DNA of 16,952 bases from Pseudomonadota bacterium (GTDB lineage Bacteria > Bdellovibrionota_C > UBA2361 > OMIW01), in contig OMIW01000199.1 of NCBI GenBank assembly GCA_900299205.1, positions 1 to 16,952 of the forward strand, written 5' to 3'. The notes below the pieces were generated by a model that searched no databases, was not told where the DNA came from, and was given only the letters and a program-made list of their open reading frames with translations. Of the stretch, positions 2,886 through 14,531 are shown in pieces (position 1 is the stretch's first letter; each line of letters starts with the position of its first letter). The translations under genes and the position numbers were made by a program.

Positions 2886-3329
2886 TTACGGACGGGGAGC
2901 TGCTTTCCGAGCAATTACTTTGCGCGCAACTTTGCGAGCAACGAGCTTCTTCGGCGACGCAGTCTTTACGGCCTTCTTGACAGCTTTCTTGGCCACAGGC
3001 TTTTTGGCCGCAACCTTCTTGACTGTCTTCTTCGCGGCAGGCTTCTTAGCTGCAACCTTCTTCACGGTCTTCTTCGCGGCAGGCTTTTTGGCTGCAACCT
3101 TCTTTACCGTCTTCTTGGCTGCCGCTGGCTTCTTGGCCGCAACCTTCTTCACAGTCTTCTTGGCGGCAGGCTTTTTGGCTGCAACCTTCTTTACCGTATT
3201 CTTGGCAGCAGGCTTCTTGGCCGCTGGCTTCTTAGCTGCAGGCTTGCGAGCCGCTGTCTTCCGAACCGCTTTCTTTGGCGCGGCCTCTGGTGCAGCAGCC
3301 GAAACAGATGTATCCGTAGTAGCCATCAT
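2886..3329 (-). CDS. Histone H1-like Lys/Ala-rich DNA-binding protein
   Basis: This is a 147-residue protein with a short acidic/neutral N-terminal tail (1-18), followed by almost only Lys, Ala, Pro, Val, Thr and Arg. Residues about 40-110 are five near-identical copies of a 14-residue unit (PAAKKTVKKVAAKK), the third with one extra Ala. The tail (120-147) is Arg/Lys-rich without the repeat. Bacterial H1-like proteins of this type bind DNA without sequence specificity and help compact the nucleoid; that role is inferred from composition. The start at 3329 (or the adjacent ATG at 3326) has GGAG about seven bases upstream. The transcript ends at the terminator at 2801-2831. Long open frames on the opposite strand are shadows of the repeat. 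Confidence 0.85.
   Translation of the reverse strand: MMATTDTSVSAAAPEAAPKKAVRKTAARKPAAKKPAAKKPAAKNTVKKVAAKKPAAKKTVKKVAAKKPAAAKKTVKKVAAKKPAAKKTVKKVAAKKPAAKKTVKKVAAKKPVAKKAVKKAVKTASPKKLVARKVARKVIARKAAPRP
3000..3212 (-). repeat. Five tandem 42-45 bp in-frame repeats in the histone-like gene
   Basis: Each unit encodes PAAKKTVKKVAAKK. Four copies are 42 bp and one is 45 bp with an added Ala codon. Synonymous differences between copies (for example GCC/GCT/GCA Ala codons) show that they are not freshly duplicated. A degenerate sixth unit (PVAKKAVKKAVK) follows. Confidence 0.85.
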
Positions 3330-6801: not shown

Positions 6802-7764
6802 ATGAGGATCATGAGCAATAACGGTCGATCTTCACCCGATATCCTCGAGCAAAGGTCTCGAAGGCCCAGCGCGCGGGTTCGAGATTCGCGATTGAGGATG
6901 AGGGCGCTCCTCCTTGTCCTCGGGGCGATGACGACAGGGGTGGGCACAGTTGCTACCGCCCAGTCGGGCAGTTACGCGCCACATGGATCGACAAAACGGC
7001 AAACGCAGACTACCCCGAGGATAGCCCCAGCAGTCGAAAGCCCCGTCGTTACCTTTGCCCCGACCCGTCTCGATGGTAGCTCATCCATCCAGCTCATTAC
7101 GACACCTCCTTTAACAACGCTCGGAACCGAACTCATCTCGTCAATCCGCAAAACCCACCGCGAGTTCAACGCACTCTTTGGGGGTATAACCGACATTCAC
7201 AACACCCTGCGACTCATCGATGCTGAAGAATTTTACGCGGTTACTCACCTTCCAACCTGGACGAATGCAATGTTTTTCCGGAAGCAAGTCGTCATTCCAA
7301 TTGATCGCTCCAAACCTATCGACCGCATGGAACTCGAGCGCTCCCTCCGCCACGAATACTTCCACGCCATCACCCATTCTCTTTCGGCGGGAAGATGCCC
7401 TGGCTGGCTCGATGAGGGGCTCGCTCAACACATTGAGGGTATACCGCAGGAGGGTTTGTGGAGGGCTCTCGCAGGATGGTTGGGAAACAACGACATGGTT
7501 CCCTTTGAACGGCTCGCGCGCGGGTTTACCAAGCTCCCAAGCGAAATGGTGGCGCCCGCTTATGCTCAATCACTCGTCGCTGCACGAATGGTGCGCTCTC
7601 AATTCGGGATGGGCGCGGTTCGAGCATTTTTGGAGCAACTAAAATCGGGTGCTCAGGTTGAAAGCTCATTCTTGCATGCTTTCGGCATCCCCGCGACGGC
7701 GTTTCATAAACGCGTCGAGGAAAACCTCCGCTCAGGAAAATTTCAACAGGGTGATTTCGGCTAA
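6802..7764 (+). CDS. Secreted MA-like zinc metallopeptidase
   Basis: This 320-residue protein carries the gluzincin pattern: His184-Glu185-Tyr-Phe-His188, then Glu205 in GWLDEGLAQH. The two His and the second Glu are the expected zinc ligands, and Glu185 is the catalytic base. This spacing and the WxxEGxA context match the peptidase MA-like family, found in exported bacterial proteins of mostly unknown substrate. A hydrophobic segment at about 35-52 followed by Ala-x-Ala (51-53) is a signal peptide, so the catalytic domain (about 95-310) is outside the cytoplasm. The start is uncertain: ATG at 6802, ATG at 6811 (GAGG three bases upstream) or ATG at 6898 (shortest signal peptide). It runs convergently towards the lipocalin-like gene. 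Confidence 0.75.
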   Translation: MRIMSNNGRSSPDILEQRSRRPSARVRDSRLRMRALLLVLGAMTTGVGTVATAQSGSYAPHGSTKRQTQTTPRIAPAVESPVVTFAPTRLDGSSSIQLITTPPLTTLGTELISSIRKTHREFNALFGGITDIHNTLRLIDAEEFYAVTHLPTWTNAMFFRKQVVIPIDRSKPIDRMELERSLRHEYFHAITHSLSAGRCPGWLDEGLAQHIEGIPQEGLWRALAGWLGNNDMVPFERLARGFTKLPSEMVAPAYAQSLVAARMVRSQFGMGAVRAFLEQLKSGAQVESSFLHAFGIPATAFHKRVEENLRSGKFQQGDFG

Positions 7765-7774
7765 CAATCCGAGG

Positions 7775-7815
7775 GTCACGGGCTATCGTCAGATAAGCTA
7801 TAAGCCGGGCGTGAC
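7775..7815. terminator. Hairpin in the convergent junction
   Basis: GTCACG (7775-7780) pairs perfectly with CGTGAC (7810-7815), with a partial inner stem GGCT/AGCC. It overlaps the last codons of the lipocalin-like gene. No T run is present on either side, so any terminator role is weak. Confidence 0.25.
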
Positions 7816-8997
7816 AGGCTTTCCGTATCCCGTCAGCTCGGCGTATCCTTTCACCGAATTACTTTTGTTAGCGATAGCCCCCTCCCAATAAGTAAGAGGA
7901 TCCTTCGTGGAGCTATTATGCGCCCCACCCCGGATCTCCTGATCGGCGAGAATCGGGGCAAGCTCCTCTCGGAAGCCAATTTGGGGAACCCGTATCAGCC
8001 AACGCTGGGGATAAGTGGTACCGCTCGCTCTACTGGTCCACGAACCCAGGGATTCAATCGAGAAATCATCCCCTGAAAGGGGTGTTGTTACCCCACCGTG
8101 CGAAAGAGTTCCTGAGAAAAAATCGCTTCCTGATTCTCTCCCCCGCACTCGGAAGAGCATGATTGAGTGACCTCCCTCGGTCATAATCGAAAACCAATCC
8201 CATCCAACCTGATCGGGCTGGAGGGCGTTCGTCATAAACTCATGATCCATCCATAACATGCCCGAGACAGCCTCCACCTTGCCGGGGCTCCTCACCTCCC
8301 CGCGAGCATGGAGCTGCGGAACCGAATAGTACATCGAGGCGCACCCATCACAAGCCGCCTTTCTGCTAAAACCATCGAGCCCCTGACGAACGATCATCGA
8401 TGCCGAAACAGGCCCGGTGATAAGCCGAACCTCCCGATCTCCCGGAAGATTCCATCGCAAGATCCATTGACCAGCGACCGATTCGAGACCCCAATCGAGG
8501 AGATGTATCCCGAGCCGATCGCGTGCAACCTCGACCCCCCCCATTCCTGACCGAGCGTACCGAATGTCATGACTAAAGTTGCCGGAGAGCACGTCTCCTA
8601 GGGCTCCGTGGGCGGCGTACACCTGTCCCCAGAGACCATCCCCCTTCCGTCGGCGAAAAAAAGTGAGCTGAATGCCGTAGTGAGTTGGGGACCCAAATAC
8701 GGGCATACCCTCCGGAACAAGATGTCCGGTCAGATACCACCATTCAGTTTCAAAGCGGGGATGCATACCATGATCAAGAGGGAAGGTGAGCCCACGCTGA
8801 GGCTCGGCATGCTCGATGGCCGAATCTGGTGTGGATGGAGTGTCCTCGGCGAAAGCCAAGGTGGATCGACCCCCCAGCTGAATTGACCCCGCCATAAACA
8901 TGAGAAATAAGACATCACCCGCCCAATTTCTCACCCCCACATTACCTCTTAAGAGTGAGCACAACCCTTTCAGCGGTAGTCCTAAACACTCCTTCAT
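7798..8997 (-). CDS. Secreted AttH/CrtC-type lipocalin-domain protein (predicted hydrolase)
   Basis: This 399-residue protein has an uncleaved-looking long N-terminus, a hydrophobic segment at about 28-43 and an Ala-Phe-Ala site near 50, implying export. Family landmarks are EWWYLTGHL (85-93), a YYS stretch near 223, WMDHEF (249-254) and GWDWFS (265-270). These place it in the AttH / carotenoid 1,2-hydratase-like double-lipocalin family, often labelled 'predicted secreted hydrolase'; activity is unproven. An unusual Cys-x-x-Cys (216, 219) lies in the central linker. The start at 8997 has GGGGA about five bases upstream; GTG 9018 and ATG 9012 are alternatives. It is the last gene of the ATPase-permease-lipocalin operon, 39 bases after the permease stop, and probably handles the transporter's hydrophobic substrate. 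Confidence 0.85.
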   Translation of the reverse strand: MKECLGLPLKGLCSLLRGNVGVRNWAGDVLFLMFMAGSIQLGGRSTLAFAEDTPSTPDSAIEHAEPQRGLTFPLDHGMHPRFETEWWYLTGHLVPEGMPVFGSPTHYGIQLTFFRRRKGDGLWGQVYAAHGALGDVLSGNFSHDIRYARSGMGGVEVARDRLGIHLLDWGLESVAGQWILRWNLPGDREVRLITGPVSASMIVRQGLDGFSRKAACDGCASMYYSVPQLHARGEVRSPGKVEAVSGMLWMDHEFMTNALQPDQVGWDWFSIMTEGGHSIMLFRVRGRESGSDFFSGTLSHGGVTTPLSGDDFSIESLGSWTSRASGTTYPQRWLIRVPQIGFREELAPILADQEIRGGAHNSSTKDPLTYWEGAIANKSNSVKGYAELTGYGKPVTPGL

Positions 8998-9036
8998 TCG
9001 ATCCCCACGCATAGCCACAGCTTCACGACAATAGTC

Positions 9037-11634
9037 TCACTCATCACGAAATCCACCCCGCGCCGTCTGACGATATACTACTCCCGCTGCGAGGGCGGAG
9101 CAGAGTGCGGCCAGCAGCACGAACGCGACTCCCGAGCAGATAATGTTACTCCACCGGAGATGGAGTGACAGGCTCCAACCGAACGAGAGGGGATTGACGT
9201 AGGCAATCAGTATCCAGCCGAGCAGTCCTCCCGCGCACGCCCCCGCAACGACCGCCGGCACCACCGACACGACCCCCTCAATAGCAGCCGCTATCGCGAC
9301 CTCTCGTCGAGAGACCCCGAGGGTACGAACCGTTTTAAACTCCGACTCCCGAGCGGTATACCGCTGGATTGAGGCGATCAAAAACCCCGCTAGTGTGACG
9401 AGCAATATAATCCCCTCGAGAACGCCAGTAATCGCGAAGGTGCTCCTAAAAAGCTCATCAATACGCTCCCGCAACTCTTCCATCGAAAGCACGGTTACTG
9501 CGGCAGAGCCGATCACCTCCTCGACCTCGTGCTTGATGATGTGTGGATCTCCTCCAGGTGAGAATCGCACACTCACACTCTCGGCCGCCCGATTTTCGGT
9601 TCCCCGGACGAAAGGTTCCCACCCCATCAAGATAGTCCCACGCTCCCTCGTGTAATCCCGATATATCCCGATGACCGGCAGCTGAGTCCCCCAGATCTCT
9701 ATCGTTTCTCCGATCGTTCGCCGGAGCCGGCGAGCACCACTCTCACTCAGCAGGACCCCTTGTCCCGAACCAAAAAGGCCCGCATCGTACTTCCCAGCAA
9801 GGAACCGCATCGTTGCAACCTCTCCGCCGGCCTCGTCATCAAGTTGGGCTCCATACAGAGAGAGAGATACGCCATCAACGTCGACCAGATATCCTCGAGT
9901 TCTCAATACTCGTTCGACGCCCCGTACCGCAGCGATTCTATCCGTCTGAGCAGGTGAGAGCACCGCTGGATTGCGAGGATCGTTCGCACCGATCGGCTTG
10001 ATAAAAAGATCCTCTGAGAAAGTATGCGCAACCCACTCCTGCAACGTGGTCTGAAAACTGGTGACAAGGATTGAGAGTCCGAGAAGGAGCGCAAGTCCTG
10101 CTGCCATCGTCCTCACCGACCGGGCGACCTCTCGCTCCCCTATCTCCGAGGAGCCCGCTGCGAGAAGGGTAACCACTCGTGGCACCCGCTTGATGAGATG
10201 ACTCATTCGCCCGACGATGCCGTGAACCGTGAGAGAGACGAGAAGCACACATAGCCCCCCCAGCAGGAGGACCGCGAGATACGCGAACCCAATCTGCTCG
10301 CGGCTCCAGGCAGCGGTGAGCGCAACCCACACCCCGATACCACACCCTATCAGGAGCACCCCATCCCGCTTTCGGTGAGAGGAACGACCCCTCCCCTCCT
10401 CAATGGGTCGAGCAGAGAGCGTCGGCACGGTGTGGCGAGCCTGAAGAGCCGGGAAGAGCCCTCCTGCGACACTCACCACCATCCCAATACCGAATGCAGT
10501 CGCCGTGATACCAGCTCGCCGTCCGAGCCCGAGCGCAGAAAATTCTAAGTCAGGAAGATACATTTCCTGAGCCGTTTTCATAAGCATATGCGAGACCACG
10601 GTCACCAGTGGCTCCCCTCCCCATATCCCGAGAAGGGAGCCGACCGCCCCTATGATTACCGCATCTACAAGTAGCAACGCTGAGGCCCCAAAGCCGGTCA
10701 CCCCTAATGTGCGCAGAATCTGCATATCCTTCATCGCGTGGAATGCGTGAACTCGCATCGCATTCTCAACGAGCAGACCTGTGACAACCAGAGTCATCAG
10801 GACCATGACCAGCACATTCATACGGAAGGCACTCAGGAGAGAATCCATCCTTCCTGACTGCTCAGCATCAGAATCAATTATCAGGTTCGGGTTGAAATGA
10901 GAGAGGTCTTCTCTCAGTCGCGCGACCTCATCCTGGGAGAAGGACCCATCCTGCTCCTCGCGCGGGACGAGATAAACTGAGGTAAATGAGGAACGGTGAG
11001 GGAGCCATCGCTCCAAAGCAGAGAGGTCCAGGTAGATTGCGCGACGTTGAGAGATCAGAGGGTGATTCTGCGCTCGCACCGAGAAGACAGTCGATGAACC
11101 ATCTGCCTGGAGCTCGATTGATACCGGAGAGTCATCCGAAGGCCGAGATTCAACGAGAGAGAGAAGAGGGGAATGGGGGACGATTATTCCGTCGGCGGAA
11201 TCACTCCCCCGCTGATTATCTTGGTGGACTAAATTACCATCGATGCCAAATACCCGAACCGGCGTCACCCCAGCCATCGCGAGGAACTCTACTACCGGCA
11301 CGATCATGAACCGATCTCCCACCAGCGCACCGAGGACGGCAACATCGCGGCCACTTATCGTGCTACTCGTGGCGTGGCAAGTCAGGACTCCTTTACTCGT
11401 TGTCCCCGAAGAGCTCGCAGCAAATGACGCAACCGAGGCCTCACCCGCCATCACACTTGCGAGGAACAACGCCACTCCGACTGCGACAGCGCCTATCACA
11501 AGTACCGTCCGAAGCGGTGCCTGCCAAAGCCGACGAACACTAAATACCCGCATAAGGAACAAAATAGCTCCGAACGAACTTCTTGCCCCTTCACGTGTTC
11601 GCTCACCCCACTTAACCATCGGCATGACCGTCAC
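9037..11634 (-). CDS. FtsX/LolC-type ABC transporter permease, duplicated form with about 10 membrane segments
   Basis: This 865-residue permease has two FtsX-like halves in one chain. TM1 is at about 43-62, followed by a periplasmic domain (about 65-268). Three TMs follow (about 272-292, 316-336, 374-395), two central TMs (about 425-443 and 449-473) and TM7 (about 508-527), then a second periplasmic domain (about 530-730) and three final TMs (about 734-757, 784-810, 831-852). Such type VII ABC permeases do mechanical work across the envelope, often on lipids or lipoproteins, rather than forming a channel. Each half has the coupling motif RTLGV (308-312, and again near 770). AttF and AttG are separate permeases in some operons; here they appear fused. 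Its 5' end overlaps the ATPase stop: GTG 11634, ATG 11625 and ATG 11619 are all possible starts, indicating translational coupling. Confidence 0.88.
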   Translation of the reverse strand: MTVMPMVKWGERTREGARSSFGAILFLMRVFSVRRLWQAPLRTVLVIGAVAVGVALFLASVMAGEASVASFAASSSGTTSKGVLTCHATSSTISGRDVAVLGALVGDRFMIVPVVEFLAMAGVTPVRVFGIDGNLVHQDNQRGSDSADGIIVPHSPLLSLVESRPSDDSPVSIELQADGSSTVFSVRAQNHPLISQRRAIYLDLSALERWLPHRSSFTSVYLVPREEQDGSFSQDEVARLREDLSHFNPNLIIDSDAEQSGRMDSLLSAFRMNVLVMVLMTLVVTGLLVENAMRVHAFHAMKDMQILRTLGVTGFGASALLLVDAVIIGAVGSLLGIWGGEPLVTVVSHMLMKTAQEMYLPDLEFSALGLGRRAGITATAFGIGMVVSVAGGLFPALQARHTVPTLSARPIEEGRGRSSHRKRDGVLLIGCGIGVWVALTAAWSREQIGFAYLAVLLLGGLCVLLVSLTVHGIVGRMSHLIKRVPRVVTLLAAGSSEIGEREVARSVRTMAAGLALLLGLSILVTSFQTTLQEWVAHTFSEDLFIKPIGANDPRNPAVLSPAQTDRIAAVRGVERVLRTRGYLVDVDGVSLSLYGAQLDDEAGGEVATMRFLAGKYDAGLFGSGQGVLLSESGARRLRRTIGETIEIWGTQLPVIGIYRDYTRERGTILMGWEPFVRGTENRAAESVSVRFSPGGDPHIIKHEVEEVIGSAAVTVLSMEELRERIDELFRSTFAITGVLEGIILLVTLAGFLIASIQRYTARESEFKTVRTLGVSRREVAIAAAIEGVVSVVPAVVAGACAGGLLGWILIAYVNPLSFGWSLSLHLRWSNIICSGVAFVLLAALCSALAAGVVYRQTARGGFRDE

Positions 11635-12319
11635 GAAATCGAATGCACTCGTCGTCGATTAATTCTCCATCGTGGAGACGAATGACCCGACCGCACCACG
11701 CCAGAGAATCCTCTCGATGGGTCGCCATAATGACTGCCGCTCCCTCACAGGCAGCTCTCTTGAGTAGATCAAGCACGGCATGCCCAGATTTGGTATCGAG
11801 GTTGCCGGTTGGCTCGTCAGCAAGAATAAGGTGTGGACGATGAGCCAGGGCCCGACACACAGCCACCCGCTGCATCTCCCCACCCGAGAGCTGATGTGGC
11901 CGATGTTCACATCGATGACTCAGCCCGACCTGTTCAAGCAACTCTCGGGCTCGCATTCGGGCATCGCGCGAGGAAACGCCTGCCAGGAGCGGGGTCACGG
12001 TAATATTCTCCTCTGCGGTGAGGGTGGGGAGCAGATTAAAATACTGGAAGACGTACCCAAGGAGGGTCCGCCGATAGCGCGCAAGGCCCTGTTCGTTCTC
12101 AAAGTCTATCTTCTCTCCCGCAATGGATATCCCCCCGCTGCTCGGGGACATTACCAACCCTCCTATTGAGAGCAGAGAACTCTTTCCGCAGCCACTGGGA
12201 CCACTCAAGGCGACGAATTCACCGCGCGAGACTCCAAAAGATACCCCCCGAAGCGCATGAACCGCCCCCTCACCCTCACCGTATTTTTTTGAGAGCGATG
12301 TTATCTGAAGAAAATTCAT
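11612..12319 (-). CDS. LolD/MacB-type ABC transporter ATPase
   Basis: This is a 235-residue cytoplasmic ATPase that powers the downstream permease. Walker A GPSGCGKSS is at 40-48, Q-loop Gln92 in VFQYFN, signature LSGGEMQR at 144-151, Walker B LILADE at 164-169 and the switch His201 in MATHRE. The LADEPTGNLD run is typical of the LolD/FtsE/MacB branch. The start at 12319 gives the family's usual short N-terminus (MNFLQITSLSKKYGEG) but lacks a good ribosome binding site; a GTG at 12355 would add 12 residues. The stop overlaps the permease start region by up to 23 bases. The dehydrogenase gene ends 108 bases upstream in the same direction, with no convincing terminator between. Confidence 0.93.
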   Translation of the reverse strand: MNFLQITSLSKKYGEGEGAVHALRGVSFGVSRGEFVALSGPSGCGKSSLLSIGGLVMSPSSGGISIAGEKIDFENEQGLARYRRTLLGYVFQYFNLLPTLTAEENITVTPLLAGVSSRDARMRARELLEQVGLSHRCEHRPHQLSGGEMQRVAVCRALAHRPHLILADEPTGNLDTKSGHAVLDLLKRAACEGAAVIMATHREDSLAWCGRVIRLHDGELIDDECIRFRDGHADG

Positions 12320-12427
12320 GGCGTCGTAAACCAAAAGGGGCGGCTTGTTGATCACACGAAGGCCACCCCACCATGATCAGCACGATCGATGATAGTTACT
12401 GGCGAGCCCCCTCTCCGAGACGAGACG

Positions 12428-13573
12428 CTAGCTGCCGGATGCCAGTAACTCCCTGGCAATTACCATCCTCTGAATCTGGCTCGTTCCCTCATAAATCTGC
12501 AGTAGTTTAGCATCGCGCATCAATTTTTCGACCGGGTACTCTTTGGTATATCCATATCCACCGAATACCTGCACCGCATCGGTAGCGACCTCCATCGCAG
12601 TATCAGCAGCAACCCGCTTCGCCATACTCGATTCGAGAGTCGCAGGTCGCCCCGCATCAAGCAGGGCTGCAGCTCGAAGGGTGAGCAGCCGGGCAGACTC
12701 AACCGCTGTCGCCATGTCAGCGAGCATAAATTGGATTCCTTGAAACGAACTGATGGTGCGACCGAATTGTTTACGATCTTTGGCATACTGCAGCGCGAGT
12801 TCGCACGCCCGACGCGCGATACCGACCCCAATCATCGCCGTGAGGGGACGGCTCAGGTCGAGAGTTCTCATTGCAAGAGAGAATCCCTGACCCTCCTCAC
12901 CAATACGATTTGCCTCAGGTATCTCGACCCCATCGAGGGTAATCTGAACAGTATTCGAGCACCTCTGTCCCATTTTATTCTCGTGCTTACCCCGAGACAG
13001 CCCCGGTGCATCCCCAGGGACCACAAAACAGGTGATCCCTTTGTGTCGAAGTGCGGGATCGAGGGTCGCAAATACCGTAAACTGACCTGAAACCCCTCCA
13101 TTCGTAATCCACTGCTTTGTCCCCGTGAGTCGATACCCTGTTGCGGTGCGCTCGGCAACGGTGGTTAACCCTCCAGCATCAGAGCCAGCTCCCGGCTCAG
13201 TGAGACAGAACGACGCAAAAGATCCTCCGGTTGTGATCGGAGAAATAAAGGCAGCTTTTTGTTCCGGAGTTCCATCAAGCGCGATAGGGGTGAGGGCGAG
13301 ATCGTTGGCAACCATAGAGGTCGCAAATCCCGCACACCCCGCCGCGATCTCCTCAATCACGACACAAGCTTCGAGTATTGACAGATTCGAACCGCCGAAT
13401 TCATCCCCCTGAACAAGATTGAGTAATCCCGCACGGTAACCCGACGCAATGACTGCAGCCGGGAACTCGCCCGACTCATCAAAGTGGGCTGCGACCGGGC
13501 GGATCTCATCTTCGGCAAAACGACGGGCAGTATCTTGAAGAGCTGCAAGATCGTCAGACAGCTTGATGGGCAT
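12428..13573 (-). CDS. Acyl-CoA dehydrogenase (short/branched-chain type)
   Basis: This FAD-dependent enzyme forms the alpha-beta double bond of an acyl-CoA, passing electrons to ETF. The product of 381 residues is the normal length. Landmarks: [11 protein letters not shown] (123-133) and WITNGG (155-160) for FAD and substrate binding; [12 protein letters not shown] (267-278); [20 protein letters not shown] (335-354); and catalytic Glu362 in IYEGTSQIQ. The Glu position in the C-terminal IYEGTSQIQ is that of short-, medium- and branched-chain enzymes, rather than the isovaleryl/long-chain arrangement. The start at 13573 matches family N-termini; an ATG at 13582 (three residues longer) is also possible, and neither has a strong ribosome binding site. 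A terminator hairpin lies just upstream, behind the IclR gene. Substrate chain type cannot be read from the sequence. Confidence 0.93.
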
Positions 13574-13606
13574 TGAAATCATGGCGCGATTGTTCCGAGA
13601 TGGTGC

Positions 13607-13658
13607 AAAAAAAGAGAGTCTGTACATGTTGTTGGTACAACACCTACAGACTCTCTTT
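13607..13658 (-). terminator. Strong terminator between the IclR gene and the dehydrogenase gene
   Basis: A perfect 14-bp inverted repeat (13611-13624 with 13645-13658; arms AAAGAGAGTCTGTA and TACAGACTCTCTTT) ends on the minus strand in seven T. The 20-base loop contains a second small stem (TGTTG/CAACA). It sits only 24-33 bases before the possible dehydrogenase starts, leaving no room for a full promoter between. Confidence 0.88.
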
Positions 13659-13712
13659 TACGTCTTGGCCTTCTTCGTTCGCTCATCTGCAAGAGAAGCG
13701 AACTATGAGACG

Positions 13713-14531
13713 CTACTTAATCCGACCCAACCCCGCATAGGTGCCAGGAGCCTCGACGATCTCTCGCTCGAGCGTCGCAGCCAACGTGGGACGGGCTGCA
13801 CCCAATGCCGTGGAAATAGCCTGAGCCGCTTCCTCAACCATCGGGAGGAGCGTTTCAACCCGAGCCCGGTACTGAGGAGCAAGCAACTCGATCGCTCCGA
13901 GCACCTCGTTACCCGTCCCCCGAATGACCTTCGAGATAGAAACGACGTCTGCCTCAACGCCACCCTTATCGATGATATGGCCCGAAGTCCGAAGCTCCGC
14001 AAGGTGGTTGCGAATCGCCACATCTGAGGGAGTATCGGTCGCAAGTATCTCAGCAAGCACCGAGTCAGGAAGCTGAGCGGTCAACAACCGACCGACAACG
14101 CTCCCCTTTGCAGCAAACGAAACGGCGAAACGTGGCGACACCTTTACCGGACGCTTCGACTCGATACTAATCGGGAACTGAATCTGACCGTTCTGCATGA
14201 CAGCAAGGCTTGCGGTCTCACCAGACGCTTCCGCCAGATCGCGAAGGATGGGGGTTGCCCGAGCTACGATGCTGCTCTGAGAAACGTACGCCTGACCCAG
14301 CTGAAGAGCCTTCACCCCCAGCCGATAGTCTTCCGACTCAGCGTTTTGATCCACATACCCTCGAAGCTCAAGGGTCGCGAGAAGCCGAAATACATTGTTT
14401 TTGTGAAGCTTGAGCCGCTTTGACAACTCAGTCACCCCAACCTCACCGAGCGACTTTGCCAATTCCTCGAGCACATCAAGTGCATGAGAGACCGACTGGA
14501 TCATATAATTAGATTTTTCTCTTTTTACCAT
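13713..14531 (-). CDS. IclR-family transcriptional regulator
   Basis: This is a 272-residue regulator. The winged helix-turn-helix spans about 10-72 (SVSHALDVLEEL, GVTELSKRLKLHKNNVFRLLATLELRGYV), with the recognition helix near 42-54. The effector-binding domain covers about 85-255, with the expected GxxxxF-type region (FAVSFAAKGSVVGRLLTA, 134-151) and a Gly-x-Glu/Asp stretch ending in AIELLAPQYR (218-227). IclR proteins bind small acids or acyl compounds and often control a neighbouring catabolic gene, so the adjacent acyl-CoA dehydrogenase is the natural target (inference). The ATG at 14531 has AGGGG about six bases upstream. The C-terminal tail (about 248-272) is somewhat longer than usual. 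Its transcript ends at the hairpin at 13607-13658. Confidence 0.9.
   Translation of the reverse strand: MVKREKSNYMIQSVSHALDVLEELAKSLGEVGVTELSKRLKLHKNNVFRLLATLELRGYVDQNAESEDYRLGVKALQLGQAYVSQSSIVARATPILRDLAEASGETASLAVMQNGQIQFPISIESKRPVKVSPRFAVSFAAKGSVVGRLLTAQLPDSVLAEILATDTPSDVAIRNHLAELRTSGHIIDKGGVEADVVSISKVIRGTGNEVLGAIELLAPQYRARVETLLPMVEEAAQAISTALGAARPTLAATLEREIVEAPGTYAGLGRIK

Follow-up and report, generated by a model that had tools for sequence, protein, structure and literature searches.

The window (the whole stretch of DNA analysed, 16,952 nt) carries three adjoining minus-strand genes for an ABC ATPase, a permease and an exported lipocalin, which form a diverged member of the known, functionally open AttEFGH kind. 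With a probability of roughly 0.6, they encode an AttEFGH module in which a type VII complex extracts a hydrophobic molecule and delivers it to AttH for binding and possibly modification; a membrane pump thus probably feeds a secreted protein with a lipid pocket. What we observed is the order of the genes, their domains and predicted folds, the co-inheritance of the permease with the lipocalin and an invariant lipocalin motif. From these we infer that permease and AttH touch, that the transporter extracts its cargo, that the substrate is of a prenyl type and that AttH is catalytic. Seated in the inner membrane, the ATPase and the permease would make up a YbbP-fold ABC complex of type VII (mechanotransmission). 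Powered by ATP, its periplasmic domains would open and close and so draw a hydrophobic lipid, perhaps a prenyl one, out of the outer leaflet, and the extracted molecule would be handed to the exported AttH lipocalin and bound in its pocket. There, AttH may act on an isoprenoid double bond by CrtC-like acid chemistry, with D258 as the putative protonating aspartate and W273 and W275 as the putative cation-stabilising tryptophans. The features of the locus are as follows.

14531-13713, minus strand: IclR-family regulator (PF09339 and PF01614)
13659-13606 (about), minus strand: terminator-like hairpin and T-run in the IclR-ACAD gap (-32.6 kcal/mol, z -7.7)
13582-12428, minus strand: acyl-CoA dehydrogenase (ACAD), with all acyl-CoA dehydrogenase domains found
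12320-12427, minus strand: ACAD-ATPase gap of 108 nt (fold z -0.67)
12319-11612, minus strand: AttE-like ABC ATPase of the YbbA/LolD type (PF00005, E 1.9e-30)
11634, 11625 or 11619 (start) to 9037, minus strand: AttFG-like single-chain type VII permease (PF12704, MacB_PCD, and PF02687, FtsX)
9018-7798, minus strand: AttH/CrtC-type exported double lipocalin (PF07143, CrtC, and PF17186, Lipocalin_9, both E ~1e-31)

All these genes are intact, and the order of transcription is IclR, ACAD, ABC ATPase, permease, lipocalin. The inventory drawn up in the sequence-only reading (an ABC ATPase, a ~10-TM FtsX-type permease, a secreted AttH/CrtC-type lipocalin, an ACAD and an IclR regulator on one strand) was confirmed. 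The ATPase was taken to start at the ATG at 12319, the mechanical ORF reaching a GTG at 12355. The 5' end of the permease gene overlaps the 3' end of the ATPase gene (11612-11634), and the gap between permease and lipocalin genes is about 18-24 nt. By direct reading of the N-terminus, residues 1-57 of the lipocalin are signal-peptide-like (...LAFA-ED...).

Over 225 aa, the ATPase was 44.9% identical to E. coli YbbA, and its best NCBIfam match was also YbbA (199.6 bits, below the cut-off of 336). The predicted model of the permease (pLDDT 79) consists of two FtsX halves that bear periplasmic domains and contain ten long membrane helices in all, so the proposal of AttF and AttG in one chain was right. 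The best structural match of this model was E. coli YbbP (9ge7, Z 25.4, 698 of 804 residues aligned), followed by BceAB (Z 20.0), LolC (Z 17.5) and MacB (Z 16.8). LolCDE shares the type VII architecture and a LolD-like ATPase (190.8 bits to TIGR02211) with the locus, but the window ATPase falls below the LolD cut-off of 307.75, and its permease is one 10-helix chain rather than the two 4-helix chains of LolCDE. An efflux or resistance pump of the MacB or BceAB type, with AttH protecting the cell by binding a toxic compound, would agree with the place of BceAB and MacB among the structural neighbours; we consider it improbable, because the similarity over the whole length is better to YbbP and no MacA-like adaptor, TolC-like gene or sensor kinase was recognised in the window.

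Despite its YbbP fold, the permease belongs, as judged from profile scores, to the AttH-linked family and not to the YbbP sequence family. It scored 363.5 bits against a leave-one-out profile of 30 AttH-linked permeases and 17.8 bits against a YbbP profile that held two sequences only. It has diverged within the AttH-linked family, sharing 20-24% identity with the other permeases aligned.

To place the lipocalin among its relatives, genome contigs were scanned with a lipocalin alignment, which gave at least 575 confirmed matches; the best 80 of these were analysed, and their loci were searched with ATPase, permease and lipocalin profiles. Among these best 80 of at least 575, the three genes lay in tandem on one strand at 31 loci, and at 4 further loci the permease and lipocalin genes stood alone at a contig end. 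Geomonas and Methylomicrobium are examples of culturable bacteria that carry the tandem. The permease gene directly adjoined the lipocalin gene in 35 of the 80 relatives, mostly with a gap of -8 to +14 nt; at 8 loci the contig was cut too near the lipocalin gene for its neighbours to be judged. About 34 of the 80, many of them Nitrospira-type, had no adjacent permease, so AttH may be encoded apart from, or without, the transporter. Clustering of neighbouring ORFs at the 80 loci recovered ABC ATPases at 43 loci (a cluster that also takes in unrelated ABC ATPases) and the permease at 36, and no other partner recurred across phyla at comparable frequency. The remaining recurrent neighbours mostly belonged to same-lineage, Nitrospira-type synteny.

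Co-inheritance gave the same picture in the window's own order, in which matches to the permease and to PF07143 were found in an identical set of 12 of the 28 genomes (Fisher p 3.3e-8, a guide only, as the genomes are related and not independent). One genome (G007) keeps both genes at separate loci. On the lipocalin tree, at least 14 changes between permease-adjacent and non-adjacent states are needed; adjacency has therefore been lost or gained repeatedly. A 1339-aa frame at one locus (L068) resembled a permease-lipocalin fusion. It was read as a frameshift instead, because the permease domain breaks off at position 722 of its 811-position profile and an out-of-frame-looking stretch precedes a normal AttH start. 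The transporter and the lipocalin are a real unit, and their pairing was borne out both by the tandem at 31 of the 80 loci and by their occurrence in the same 12 of 28 genomes. The window has the features by which AttEFGH members are recognised: PF07143 and PF17186 with the 2ICH fold, an AttH-linked permease upstream on the same strand, and an ATPase upstream of it.

AttEFGH is known from RAST annotation tables, which include a fused AttF/AttG gene (PMC4338557), and the 2009 paper on 2ICH noted an association of AttH with LolD genes and suggested a role in lipid or isoprenoid metabolism (PMC2954199). The system with AttH NE1406 (PDB 2ICH) likewise consists of an ATPase, an FtsX permease and an AttH lipocalin, and nothing fundamental sets the window apart from it except the divergence of the permease. 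Our literature search found no substrate for AttEFGH/AttH systems, which occur in many bacterial phyla (at least 575 confirmed matches). The experimental precedent is YbbAP-TesA of E. coli, in which the extraction step by YbbAP itself is still unproven (PMC12646458). The resemblance to YbbA-YbbP-TesA claimed earlier holds as a good analogy, because the permease has the YbbP fold and the transporter has a tandem, co-inherited lipocalin; a YbbA-like ATPase, a ten-helix single-chain type VII permease and an exported partner are common to both. They differ in permease sequence family (17.8 versus 363.5 bits, the lower score being from the two-sequence YbbP profile) and in the partner, which is a CrtC-type lipocalin here and a GDSL hydrolase in the case of TesA; no TesA match was found in the window. 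The present analysis thus links AttH to its permease by co-inheritance and separates AttH-linked permeases from TesA-linked YbbP despite the shared fold. At one related locus (L030:1540-10722), a TesA-like GDSL gene is divergent from a YbbA-YbbP pair and an AttH gene lies ~4-5 kb off, so that both kinds of partner are present in one neighbourhood.

The lipocalin matched the 2ICH profile at E 9e-81, and its model (pLDDT 93) superimposed on AttH 2ICH with Z 39.9 and 31% identity. Kievitone hydratase (Z 28.9), the fungal [4+2] cyclases CghA/Fsa2 (~21.8) and 25-phosphosteroid lyase (19.9) followed, after which the next match fell to Z 7.7. We took a PDB hit on 3-methyl-L-tyrosine peroxygenase, which covered 31 positions at E 0.096, to be due to chance. 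With a prenyl hydratase, fungal pericyclases and a steroid side-chain lyase as the structural relatives of the modelled lipocalin, its conserved chemistry points to isoprenoid-type rather than acyl substrates.

The lipocalin contains the motif W256-x-D258 ... W273-x-W275, with the general form [WY]-x-D-x14-W-x-W. This motif was present in 47/47 and 12/12 AttH relatives (59/59 aligned rows) and in 0.14% of shuffled sequences, and W256, D258, W273 and W275 are all invariant among the sampled AttH proteins. As the CrtC reference we used the carotenoid 1,2-hydratase of the photosynthesis cluster on Roseobacter litoralis plasmid pRLO149_94; no CrtC sequences were found in the order of the L070 genome. 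The CrtC sequence Y-F-D...W-T-W aligned with W256-M-D258...W273-D-W275 of AttH at a weak hhalign score (E 0.0046, probability 7.6%), which placed CrtC Tyr266 at AttH Trp256 and left the position of CrtC His239 beyond the aligned part. In the CrtC of Rubrivivax, D268, W283 and W285 are spaced just like the AttH residues (15 and 17 residues), and mutating them abolishes or drastically cuts activity (PMC12402844; for D268 also PMC4717167). Kievitone hydratase, whose alignment is significant (E 5.8e-9), follows this pattern too, as W-Y-D...W-T-W. CrtC and kievitone hydratase (7A0T) share with AttH the double-lipocalin fold as well as the motif; unlike CrtC, the window AttH has W for Y266, is linked to a transporter, gave no match even at E 10 to the CrtC model NF045922 (cut-off 400 bits), and comes from a genome without a phytoene desaturase match.

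This CrtC-like motif is the main new lead, and three of its residues (D258, W273 and W275) bear on the choice between carrier and enzyme. It suits an enzyme that works on isoprenoid double bonds, but may also reflect a pocket that has been retained. The main rival to a modifying AttH is a pure carrier, a LolA-like chaperone ferrying lipid across the periplasm, in which the motif would be structural. We hold this to be a serious possibility, if short of even odds: AttH has a lipocalin fold and Trp in place of CrtC Tyr266, LolCDE-LolA is a type VII precedent with LolC among the structural matches of the permease, and a lipobox-like motif in ~12 of the 80 AttH sequences (best 80 of at least 575) is compatible with membrane-anchored carriers. 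The invariance of W256, D258, W273 and W275 argues against it, as does the fact that the nearest structures of known function are enzymes. More tentatively, AttH may be an active periplasmic CrtC-type enzyme that AttEFG feeds with prenyl lipids, such as polyprenol or quinone side chains, and that hydrates them or carries out a similar acid-catalysed reaction; this stronger claim is itself rather doubtful. Were AttH an enzyme, YbbP-fold machines would have a second type of partner enzyme, a counterpart to TesA in YbbAP-TesA.

A carotenoid or hopanoid substrate was considered for this organism and rejected as unlikely, because its genome (G000, an assembly ~90% complete) gave no match to phytoene desaturase (CrtI, TIGR02734) or to hopene cyclase. 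The hopene cyclase result is the weaker of the two, since none of the control genomes gave a score at or above the cut-off of that model.

The sequence-only reading had further tied the module to acyl-CoA oxidation, as one operon behind the ACAD and IclR genes. The ACAD gene does adjoin the ATPase gene on the same strand, but "fused to an ACAD locus" was an overstatement, given the 108-nt gap. Neither a terminator nor a promoter was seen between 12428 and 12319: folding of the gap gave no terminator-like structure (z -0.67), and the promoter scan found no sigma-70-like sites in 7000-14500, a consensus that may not be the host's promoter type. Because the gap holds no terminator-like structure, read-through from ACAD into the ATPase gene is possible, and the two may be co-transcribed. 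On the other side of ACAD, the very stable hairpin with its T-run (0 of 200 shuffles equally stable) separates IclR from ACAD, so the membership of IclR in the operon is doubtful; the IclR-ACAD gaps of several relatives hold terminator-like structures at this position too. Of the proposed operon, the conserved ATPase-permease-AttH tandem stood, and the inclusion of IclR was weakened by the hairpin.

Comparison within the order showed that the usual block is dapF-dapA-dapB-IclR-ACAD-...-peptidase (opposite strand)-iron-sulphur insertion protein-subtilase, and that the transporter-lipocalin module lies inside this dapF...subtilase block in some genomes only. An IclR ortholog was found in 25 of the 28 genomes, with the lipocalin present or absent, and an ACAD ortholog adjoined it in about 20 of those 25. 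By ORF reading and a small profile, an Hpt-domain gene (PF01627) follows ACAD in at least 11 genomes. Direct adjacency of the ACAD and AttE genes was seen in the window's genome only, where the Hpt gene is missing. Other genomes showed IclR-ACAD-Hpt-YfiR-like-TonB receptor-ATPase-permease-lipocalin (G015), IclR-ACAD-Hpt-lipocalin with the transporter elsewhere (G007), IclR-ATPase with ACAD missing (G006), IclR-ACAD-Hpt-peptidase and no module (G001), or the module genes on contigs other than that of the IclR-ACAD pair (G013, G018, G025 and G026).

The presence of ACAD was independent of the lipocalin in the order (10 of 12 genomes with it versus 11 of 16 without, p 0.66). A survey of the wider loci (best 80 of at least 575) found IclR beside the lipocalin homologues at 1/80, from the window's own order, and ACAD at 2/80. 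It is highly improbable that the module serves lipid or acyl scavenging co-expressed with acyl-CoA oxidation under IclR control. The same-strand ACAD neighbour across a 108-nt gap without a terminator speaks for such a role, as does the fact that the related YbbAP has TesA, which acts on acyl substrates, as its partner (PMC12646458); the adjacency in a single genome, the independence of lipocalin and ACAD, the rarity of both neighbours in the wider loci, the Hpt gene rather than the transporter as the usual follower of IclR-ACAD, and the terminator-like hairpin after IclR all speak against it. On the strength of synteny and phylogenetic profile, ACAD and IclR were rejected as functional partners: we judge them to be chromosomal neighbours and not parts of the module, and the adjacency of ACAD here is by chance. 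The misleading link to acyl-CoA oxidation is thereby removed.

Some further features of these loci were recorded. An inverted repeat, GTTCGCT...AGCGAAC, was read by eye in 13660-13713, between IclR and ACAD and upstream of the hairpin; it is a possible candidate IclR operator. The Hpt gene behind IclR-ACAD is found, for example, at L131:9988-10335, L127:6193-6552 and L128:7733-8074, in some cases with a response-regulator-like ORF nearby. In G015 (L127:3526-6176), the YfiR-like protein and the TonB-dependent receptor are encoded between Hpt and AttE-permease-AttH. Elsewhere in the window, 2886-3329 on the minus strand encodes a lysine/alanine-rich repeat protein with AAKKPAAKK units, which is histone H1-like.
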